Shown piece by piece: positions 59,893 to 63,069 of a stretch of 64,000 nt of DNA (its first letter is position 1; each line of letters starts with the position of its first letter). The stretch covers positions 62,001 to 126,000 of the forward strand of contig CACGUF010000001.1 in the NCBI GenBank assembly GCA_902576125.1. The letters are read 5' to 3'. The position numbers and the translations under genes were made by a program. The DNA comes from an uncultured Alphaproteobacteria bacterium (GTDB lineage: Bacteria > Pseudomonadota > Alphaproteobacteria > HIMB59 > GCA-002718135). The notes under the pieces are model-generated. The model was given only the letters and a program-made list of their open reading frames with translations. It did no database searches and had not been told where the DNA came from.

Positions 59893-61326
59893 TTAAACAT
59901 CATAATAAAGATTAAACTCATGTGGATGTGGTCTCATATCCATTGGGCTAACCTCATTTTCTCTTTTATAAGAAATATAAGTTTCTATATTATCCTTAGT
60001 AAATACATCACCAGCTAATAAATATTTATGATCTCTTTCTAGAGCACTTAAAGACTCAGCCAGAGAACCAGGTGTAGAAGGTATTTTTGCAAGAACACTT
60101 GCAGGAGCTTCGTAAATATTTATGTCAGTAGGCTTACCGGGATTAATTTTATTTTTCACTCCATCCAAACCAGCCATTAATATTGCTGAAAATGCTAAAT
60201 AAGGATTTGATGAAGGATCCGGACATCTAAACTCAACTCTTTTTGCTTTAGGGCTTGCTGTGTAGTTATTTGGAATTCTTACAGAGGCAGTTCTATTTGC
60301 TTGAGAGTAGGCTATGTTGACAGGTGCTTCAAATCCAGGAACCAACCTTTTATAGGAATTGGTTGTTGGCGCACAAAATGCTAAGAGTGAGGGAGCATGT
60401 TTTAAAATTCCTCCGATATAATGCAACGCAAAATCACTTAAGTCTGCATAATTACCTTTTTTGTACATGAGAGTCTTATTATTCTTCCATATACTTGAAT
60501 GCACATGCATACCTGATCCATTATCTTCAAAAAGTGGCTTGGGCATAAATGTTGCAGTCATACCATGTTGCTTAGCAACATTTTTTATAACATATTTATA
60601 GCGTAAAAGATCATCTGCCATTAATAAAAGTGGAGAAAATTGTAAGTCAATTTCACATTGGCCTCCAGTTGCAACTTCATGATGAGATGCCTCAACATCA
60701 ATTCCAATTTCTTCCATAGTTAAAACCATCTCAGTTCTTACATCTTGTAAACTATCAGATGGTGGTAATGGGAAATAGCCTCCTTTATGTCTTGGTTTAT
60801 GACCTAAATTAGGATTTTCATCTCTTCCACTATTCCATGCTCCTTCTATAGAGTCAACTTCATGGAAAGCGAAGTTAGAACCAGAATCATACTTAACATC
60901 ATTAAATACAAAAAATTCCGCTTCTGGACCAAAATATGCTGTATCACCTAGTTTTGAAGATTTTAAATATTTTTCTGCTTTTTTTGCAATATATCTAGGA
61001 TCTCTATCATAACTTTCATAAGTAATTGGATCAACAACATCACAGGTAAATGCAATTGTTTTTTCTGAGTAAAAAGGATCAATATATCCAGTAGTTACAT
61101 CTGGCACCATTGCCATGTCACTGTTTTCAATAGATTGAAATCCTCTAACAGAAGAACCATCAAATCCAACACCGTCAGAAAATAAATCTTCAGTTAGATA
61201 CTTTACTGGTATTGATATATGATGTGTTGAACCTGGTAAATCAGTGAACCTAAGATCAACCATTTTAATATTTTCATTTTTTATTTTTTTTAGAAGCTCT
61301 TTTGGAGTCTTGCAGTTATATTTCAT
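59893..61326 (-). CDS. glnA: Glutamine synthetase type I
   Basis: Dodecameric cytosolic enzyme making glutamine from glutamate, ammonia and ATP; 477 residues. Motifs: [18 protein letters not shown] at the N-terminus, [25 protein letters not shown] (metal Glu), [63 protein letters not shown] and [17 protein letters not shown] Tyr in NIYEAPASV occupies the adenylylation site. I chose ATG 61326: GAGGTG lies four bases ahead of it, whereas the in-frame GTG at 61332 lies inside that ribosome site. Two tandem glutamine riboswitches precede it. Confidence 0.96.
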
Positions 61327-61340
61327 ATACACCTCATGTC

Positions 61341-61371
61341 AAAAACAACTAATTTCAACAATTGAAATTAG
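61341..61371 (-). terminator. Hairpin and U-run in the glnA leader (possible riboswitch output)
   Basis: Perfect 10-bp inverted repeat CTAATTTCAA / TTGAAATTAG (61371-61349) with a 3-base loop, followed on the minus strand by TTGTTTTTG. It lies between the riboswitches and the glnA ribosome site, in the position of an attenuator. The stem is AT-rich, so its strength is uncertain. Confidence 0.6.
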
Positions 61372-61411
61372 CTTAATACTTTTTCATGCTCTAGTTATGA
61401 AATCTGCTTTT

Positions 61412-61463
61412 TCGCGTTCCTTCAGCTGAAGCTTACTTCCGACCCATAAGGGTTGAACGATTT
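61412..61463 (-). promoter_or_regulatory. Glutamine riboswitch (glnA RNA motif), copy nearest glnA
   Basis: On the minus strand: ATCGTTCAACCC, a small hairpin ending GGGT, the conserved CGGAAGTAAG, a second stem (GCTTCAGC) and closing GAAGGAACGCG. P1 forms from CGTTC and GAACG. This is the known glutamine-binding glnA RNA core. It should lower or change glnA expression when glutamine is high. Confidence 0.9.
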
Positions 61464-61472
61464 ATAACTTTT

Positions 61473-61539
61473 GCATGCGTTCCTTCGGTCAAAGACCTAC
61501 TTCCGATCTAAGAAATACTTAGATTGAACGATTAAATGC
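61473..61539 (-). promoter_or_regulatory. Glutamine riboswitch (glnA RNA motif), first copy
   Basis: On the minus strand: ATCGTTCAATCTAAG, a longer P2 hairpin closing with CTTAGAT, the conserved CGGAAGTAGG, P3 GGTC/GACC and the closing CGAAGGAACGCATGC. P1 is extended by GCAT/ATGC. Only nine bases separate it from the second copy, so the two form a tandem sensor, which sharpens dose response in other tandem riboswitches. Confidence 0.92.

Positions 61540-61573: not shown

Positions 61574-63069
<1,496 letters not shown>

Follow-up and report, generated by a model that had tools for sequence, protein, structure and literature searches.

What do two glutamine riboswitch aptamers do when they lie side by side ahead of one gene, in a streamlined ocean bacterium in whose lineage the usual glutamine-sensing enzymes were not found? 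The question is raised by a 64,000-nucleotide stretch of DNA (hereafter the window) from an uncultured alphaproteobacterium (GenBank assembly GCA_902576125.1, contig CACGUF010000001.1, positions 62,001 to 126,000). An earlier note on this DNA had described two complete glnA RNA copies on the minus strand, nine bases apart and differing in P2 length, followed by a hairpin with a U-run that was read as a candidate terminator and then by the ribosome site of glnA. Indeed, the RF01739 covariance model matches the minus strand of the window twice at full length (cmscan; model positions 1-53), with 59.9 and 65.0 bits against a gathering score of 35. Judged by covariance score, each copy is a true aptamer of the glutamine (glnA) riboswitch, for which ligand binding is predicted. 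Their P2 lengths do differ, and the ribosome site and gene are as described, wherein a Shine-Dalgarno sequence (61336-61331) precedes the ATG at 61326 of a gene whose product scores 652 bits with TIGR00653. The spacing needs correction, as 12 bases separate the Rfam edges and the linker from the GAAC of one core to the GTTCA of the next spans 20 nt (61478-61459). The aptamer pair thus sits between a PII gene (61915-61574) and glnA on the minus strand, within the following series of features.

61574..61915, minus strand: PII protein gene (glnB-like) with a non-canonical T-loop; Pfam P-II
61576..61592, minus strand: terminator-like hairpin covering the PII gene's 3′ end, before the riboswitch; one found by the terminator scan, 0.1 expected in shuffles
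61474..61532, minus strand: glutamine riboswitch aptamer 1 (RF01739); 59.9 bits, E 1e-10, full length
61459..61478, minus strand: linker L, GCATGCAAAAGTTATAAATC; extends into the Rfam-defined ends of both aptamers
61411..61461, minus strand: glutamine riboswitch aptamer 2 (RF01739); 65.0 bits, E 3.9e-12, full length
61384..61407, minus strand: element D, GCAGATTTCATAACTAGAGCATGA; complementary both to L and to the region of the glnA start
61348..61372, minus strand: hairpin H, 3′ of D and 5′ of the ribosome site; 11 pairs, two of them G-C, with six U in the best 8-base stretch after it
61341..61345, minus strand: U-run 3′ of the hairpin, read from the sequence
61331..61336, minus strand: Shine-Dalgarno TGAGGT, likewise read from the sequence
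61312..61327, minus strand: second possible partner of D, made up of TATGAAAT at the start codon and of CTGC; duplex energy -11.2 kcal/mol
59893..61326, minus strand: glnA, type I glutamine synthetase; TIGR00653 652 bits, Pfam Gln-synt_C and Gln-synt_N

The start of glnA is taken here as the ATG at 61326, whereas the ORF tool places it at a GTG at 61332. The PII protein scores below the cut-offs of both NCBIfam models that it matches. Because the hairpin at the end of its gene (61592-61576, minus strand) lies just 5′ of the riboswitch, the glnA leader may need its own promoter. A third RF01739 copy, which is single, is found beyond the window at G000:C1:46285-46342 of the same genome, where it precedes an ammonium transporter gene.

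The closest named relatives of the window's GlnA come from single-cell genomes and metagenome-assembled genomes of uncultured marine Alphaproteobacteria, including MarineAlpha5, and the reading as tandem glutamine riboswitches ahead of glnA in an alphaproteobacterium is supported. RF01739 was detected in 36 of 37 genomes of the genus, with three matches in the window's own genome and two to eight in the other 35, whereas none of 24 genomes of a sister family in the same order gave a match; the filters used in these searches were stricter, such that weak matches may be lost. The one genus genome without a match (G014) has no GlnA match above 32% identity, and thus its glnA probably falls in an assembly gap. 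In a class-wide sample, five of 289 genomes carry RF01739; two belong to the genus, one of them the genome of the window, and three to a single other family.

RF01739 leaders precede nitrogen genes, which are glnA in the window and glnA, the ammonium transporter gene amtB and a circularly permuted ATP-grasp gene (CP-ATPgrasp) in relatives. Several genomes have two amtB genes in a row, each with its own aptamer pair. Where the genus CP-ATPgrasp gene lies behind a tandem glutamine riboswitch, a short ORF separates the leader from the gene (L180 499-2899; L223 2935-6371; L118 1504-2996), and in L180 an Alpha-E gene follows. In the other riboswitch-bearing family, the ATPgrasp gene lies behind a single aptamer. 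The exact linker pattern had no match among the viral_contigs; a loose tandem pattern had one (L227), with a different linker. This contig carries tandem glutamine aptamers at about 5040-4900 on its minus strand, with a linker that lacks GCATGC and could self-fold, and its downstream ORF, which is cut short, resembles a type II glutamine synthetase by eye.

Leaders were gathered by sequence pattern from the window, the search loci, the GlnA-bearing named contigs and 80 stretches chosen among the matches listed, giving 127 distinct leaders (119 tandem and 8 single), wherein all tandem leaders stem from one lineage. One leader counted as single (L016) possesses D and sits 37 bases from a contig end, and so its first aptamer was probably cut off; we count it as a cut tandem. 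The true single-aptamer leaders are seven, of which four belong to amtB and three to ATPgrasp genes of another family.

The tandem leaders share two near-invariant elements. The linker L is 18-20 nt long and begins GCATGC in 119 of 119 tandem leaders, and the C preceding AUAxCU is kept in all 119 as well; the 3′ flank of the aptamer begins GC in 127 of 127. The linker reads GCATGCAAAAGTTATAAATC in 65 of 70 glnA leaders, GCATGCAAGTTATTAAATC in 15 of 16 ATPgrasp leaders, and GCATGCAAAGTTATWAAATC, or a variant one base shorter, in most of the 33 amtB leaders. Element D is GATTTCATAACTAGAGCATGA in most glnA leaders and AATTTCCATAGCTAAGCATGA or a near variant in most of the others, with a core that is invariant across all three gene classes. 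This core motif is found in 119/119 tandem leaders versus 0/7 true singles, an absence that is confounded with gene and lineage because none of the seven D-less singles precedes glnA. Mean pairwise identity of L ranges from 0.96 to 0.99 by gene class, and in the glnA class the values are 0.97 for L and 0.96 for D versus 0.81 and 0.80 for the aptamers. Overall, L and D are better conserved than either the aptamers or the remaining leader parts that were compared. A single aptamer without D precedes amtB in the window's own genome (L002 1504-1640, from G000:C1:46285 onward) and in three relatives (L004, L179 and L193), and these leaders offer a natural single-aptamer comparison.

L and D are complementary to each other. 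The complementary segments are CAUGC with GCAUG, AGUUAU with AUAACU and a short AAAU with AUUU, and the resulting helix is predicted to enclose aptamer 2. Duplex energies range from -9.7 to -13.9 kcal/mol across all 22 distinct combinations, the linker being clipped by the pattern in three leaders. For five L/D pairs, the observed energy is equaled by 41, 22, 67, 3 and 9 of 3000 shuffles of D. RNAalifold, applied to 42 leaders, recovered CAUGC/GCAUG unaided; in the same 42 leaders it found neither AGUUAU/AUAACU nor P1, with the MAFFT register of the glnA and amtB linkers being off, and it paired the UUUC of D with the GAAG/GGAA side of aptamer 2 instead. Compensatory covariation between L and D was sought and not found, in that a table of swapped L and D elements has L variants pairing about as well, or better, with the D of other leaders. 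Because L and D are nearly invariant, covariation barely tests this pairing. When leaders were folded without constraint, the mean number of L:D pairs was only 2.0 for glnA, as opposed to 7.3 for amtB and 7.8 for ATPgrasp. With both aptamers forced to fold, the glnA leaders (n = 70) average 6.7 L:D pairs and 6.7 D:start pairs, and the amtB and ATPgrasp leaders favor L as the partner of D.

D is likewise complementary to the translation start region of the downstream gene. In the window, AUUUCAUA can pair with UAUGAAAU and GCAG with CUGC, at -11.2 kcal/mol. The best pairing of D spans the start codon of glnA in every distinct pairing printed except that of one leader (L086). Before amtB, D pairs with the Shine-Dalgarno sequence (UUUCCAU with AUGGAG) and often with the start region too, and in ATPgrasp leaders the pairing falls mostly at the start or early codons of the short upstream ORF. 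The energy of D with start regions of its own class is -9.6 for glnA (-6.0 and -7.9 with the other classes), -8.8 for amtB (-7.0 and -7.2) and, narrowly best, -8.3 for ATPgrasp (-8.1 and -6.0). Thus, the strongest start-region partner of D is its own gene class in three classes of three, which is a soft test because the own-class values come from pairing each leader's D with its own start region whereas the other values are averaged, and because the ATPgrasp window was 65 rather than 45 nt. Against 100 shuffles, the D:start energy ranks in the best 5% for 16 of 29 glnA, 7 of 16 amtB and 0 of 13 ATPgrasp leaders. The C of D that bulges out of L:D is paired in D:start. Blocking L lowers the predicted openness of the start region slightly for glnA, from 0.52 to 0.46, and more strongly for amtB, from 0.50 to 0.34, and ATPgrasp, from 0.36 to 0.22.

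We propose that the two aptamers, L and D form a single composite riboswitch for glutamine, in which the tandem aptamers share one expression platform that acts on translation, a reading that we place just on the probable side. The predicted direction of this shared switch is most likely off with glutamine. At low glutamine, L:D would be formed and translation would be on. Since L runs from P1 of aptamer 1 to P1 of aptamer 2, the two aptamers touch opposite ends of one helix, wherein the first L:D pair would use the C just 3′ of aptamer 1 P1 and the last would abut aptamer 2 P1. Glutamine bound at one or both aptamers would then erode L:D from both ends, through which the aptamers may cooperate. 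The freed D would pair with the glnA start codon region or the amtB Shine-Dalgarno sequence and block initiation, such that the two pairings of D would be mutually exclusive in the cell and glutamine would hold down both its own production and the uptake of ammonium. In crystal-structure work by Ren from 2015, glutamine is reported to establish a long-range pair involving a base on the 3′ side of P1 and to melt the short helix beneath it; in that case L:D would be opened and repression would result. The off-direction also agrees with feedback physiology, as glutamine usually represses both glutamine synthetase and the transporters for ammonium. The main opposing argument comes from the activating glutamine riboswitches of cyanobacteria.

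These cyanobacterial riboswitches, of types 1 and 2, activate with glutamine (PMC6316151, in the part of its text available), and they lend weight to the opposite logic, wherein glutamine would stabilize aptamer 2 and the L:D helix enclosing it, leaving the start codon free and turning glnA and amtB on. Because L:D encloses aptamer 2, a folded aptamer would bring L and D together, and forcing the aptamers to fold does raise the L:D pairs of glnA leaders from 2.0 to 6.7. Nevertheless, we regard activation as unlikely, since it runs counter both to the well-established repression of glutamine synthetase and ammonium transporters by glutamine and to the reported melting of the helix below P1 in the crystal-structure work. 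Our favored reading of L and D as parts of a shared translational switch must also be weighed against a reading of L and D as binding sites for a protein or small RNA, wherein their complementarity would be secondary or accidental. Invariance without covariation would also be expected of a sequence-specific site, and the invariant core of D is common to three gene classes. However, the variable part of D differs by class in a manner that fits the start region of that class, and the L:D energies are equaled by just 3 to 67 of 3000 shuffles, which makes this explanation improbable to us.

The earlier note had pointed to a candidate terminator, and transcription termination as the main output would correspond to two independent riboswitches in series with a terminator and to the published "pseudo-cooperative" class, and the available part of PMC9481103 does assign tandem glutamine riboswitches multiple expression platforms. 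The hairpin and U-run that it described are present (61372-61348 and 61345-61341), and the stretch after the hairpin is U-rich. However, the window hairpin has two G-C pairs and is absent from the terminator scan, which needs at least three. Among 71 distinct D-to-start segments (39 glnA, 22 amtB and 10 ATPgrasp), terminator-like structures, with at least three G-C pairs and at least five U among the eight nucleotides after the hairpin, occur in 19/39 glnA segments, but in 1/22 amtB and 0/10 ATPgrasp segments even though all have L and D. U runs of at least four occur in 17/39, 9/22 and 0/10 segments, respectively. Moreover, the hairpin stands in both modeled states of the two glnA leaders whose models were printed (the window and L045) and so would not be switched, whereas in an amtB model (L148) it is not formed once L is blocked. 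Between the aptamers, the near-invariant linker of 18-20 nt leaves no room for a separate terminator. A conserved intrinsic terminator after the aptamer, as in a transcription-terminating riboswitch, was thus not found among these leaders. The terminator proposed before glnA is weakly supported and partly present in glnA leaders, and we treat it as a rival to the shared translational platform and not as the main mechanism; two switches in series with a terminator seem to us quite unlikely.

The genomic setting of the shared platform bears on what it may have replaced; the RNA would have taken over glutamine sensing once GlnD and GlnE were lost. GlnD was found in none of the 37 genus genomes and in all 24 sister-family genomes, one of these matches lying under the curated cut-off, and GlnE in 0/37 versus 22/24, the genus genomes being incomplete (55 to 89% in the GlnE search). 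A genome that is 96% complete (G220) carries eight aptamers and neither GlnD nor GlnE. The GlnD-PII-GlnE cascade is thus not detected in the genus. Signs of change are also found in its target proteins. The canonical PII T-loop, TELYRGAEY, occurs in none of 63 PII proteins of the lineage (from the named contigs and G220), whereas it is present in 17 of 17 others (14 from the sister family, two from the other riboswitch family and one further). The T-loop of the window protein (61792-61748, minus strand) reads STGGID...YDDEF in comparison with HTELYRGAEY... and has one extra residue. At the position that aligns with Tyr51, 60 of the 63 lineage proteins still have Tyr and three have Phe. In glutamine synthetase, the adenylylation site is DIN[LI]Y at 66 of 66 matched lineage sites, and DK[ND][LI]YDL at 3/3 sister-family and 17/17 other sites.

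RpoN was found in 0 of 61 genomes, with controls matched in 4 of 14, and NtrC above its cut-off in 0 of 61, the cut-off being so strict that one of 14 control genomes passes it. The best NtrC-like protein of the window's genome fits NtrX best, under the cut-off of the NtrX model. Control of glnA by NtrC and RpoN was therefore not detected as present. The earlier suggestion of an RNA sensor that adds to or replaces NtrC-type control holds in spirit, since RpoN, NtrC, GlnD and GlnE were all not found, but NtrC and RpoN are also missing in the riboswitch-free sister family; the loss that accompanies the riboswitch is accordingly that of GlnD and GlnE, and not of NtrC. The observation made by the note is thus confirmed and its interpretation partly supported. 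In the class-wide sample, 208 of 289 genomes match GlnD (191 above the cut-off) and 81 have no match, and among these 81 the riboswitch is carried by the window's genome and G220 only. We also considered, and rejected, the idea that losing GlnD generally brings in the riboswitch: 81 of 289 genomes have no GlnD match but only five of 289 have the riboswitch, and the three carriers of the other family, which have a single aptamer, do match GlnD (E 2e-147 to 5e-79).

We tentatively suggest, as a possibility that falls somewhat short of probable, that in this marine genus a composite RNA sensor took the place of the protein cascade of GlnD, GlnE, a PII that can be uridylylated and a glutamine synthetase that can be adenylylated. 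In this sensor, a pair of glutamine aptamers would clamp one shared switching helix, whose freed strand is tailored to the start site of each target, giving cooperative glutamine repression of nitrogen assimilation. The GlnD-PII-GlnE cascade resembles such a sensor in that it senses glutamine and controls glutamine synthetase; it differs in being protein based and in being present in the sister family, whereas it was not detected in the genus. In a different group, SAR11 IIIa, glnB without glnD has been noted and its consequence left open in the part of PMC10030771 available.

The tandem arrangement is already known, and what is new is the leader anatomy (L, D and the shared platform). According to the available parts of these papers, glnA RNAs in tandem were described in 2010 together with their association with glnA, PII and ammonium transporters (PMC2864571), and a 2022 survey counted 157 glutamine doublets and four triplets, which it called pseudo-cooperative, with multiple platforms (PMC9481103). 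The leaders described here share with type 1 glutamine riboswitches (glnA RNA, RF01739) their aptamer sequence and structure, 5′ position, nitrogen genes (glnA and amtB) and tandem copies, as far as the available text of both papers describes these. They differ in a linker and downstream element that are near-invariant and mutually complementary, and in their carrier, a genus of Alphaproteobacteria for which the searches found neither GlnD nor GlnE. Pseudo-cooperative tandems, such as tandem TPP riboswitches and the glutamine doublets assigned there by the available part of PMC9481103, likewise place two aptamers of the same class before one gene; here, no separate platform for aptamer 1 was seen in the predicted structures, and one shared platform is proposed. 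The glycine tandem riboswitch, with two similar aptamers and one expression platform (PMC9481103, in the part available), is alike in that arrangement. It differs in its unrelated aptamer class, and here the linker is proposed to pair with the tail after aptamer 2. In glycine tandem riboswitches, the leader pairs with the linker.

HIMB59 and AEGEAN-169 are treated as synonyms in the available part of PMC10308909, in whose text neither "glutamine" nor "riboswitch" occurs, and the bacterium of the window is probably of this AEGEAN-169/HIMB59 type. Within the literature searched, which was available in part and missed key papers, above all the 2011 glutamine-aptamer paper, we found no description of the conserved linker and tail, the shared platform, or an exchange for GlnD and GlnE.

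If the proposal is right, it shows an RNA assuming the role of a protein system central to nutrient sensing while the genome was being streamlined, and the proteins that this system once controlled show the corresponding decay. The picture in the literature of tandem glutamine riboswitches as two switches that act separately would then need revision, at least for this lineage. The leaders would also represent a testable cooperative switch, for which close relatives supply natural single- and double-aptamer leaders.
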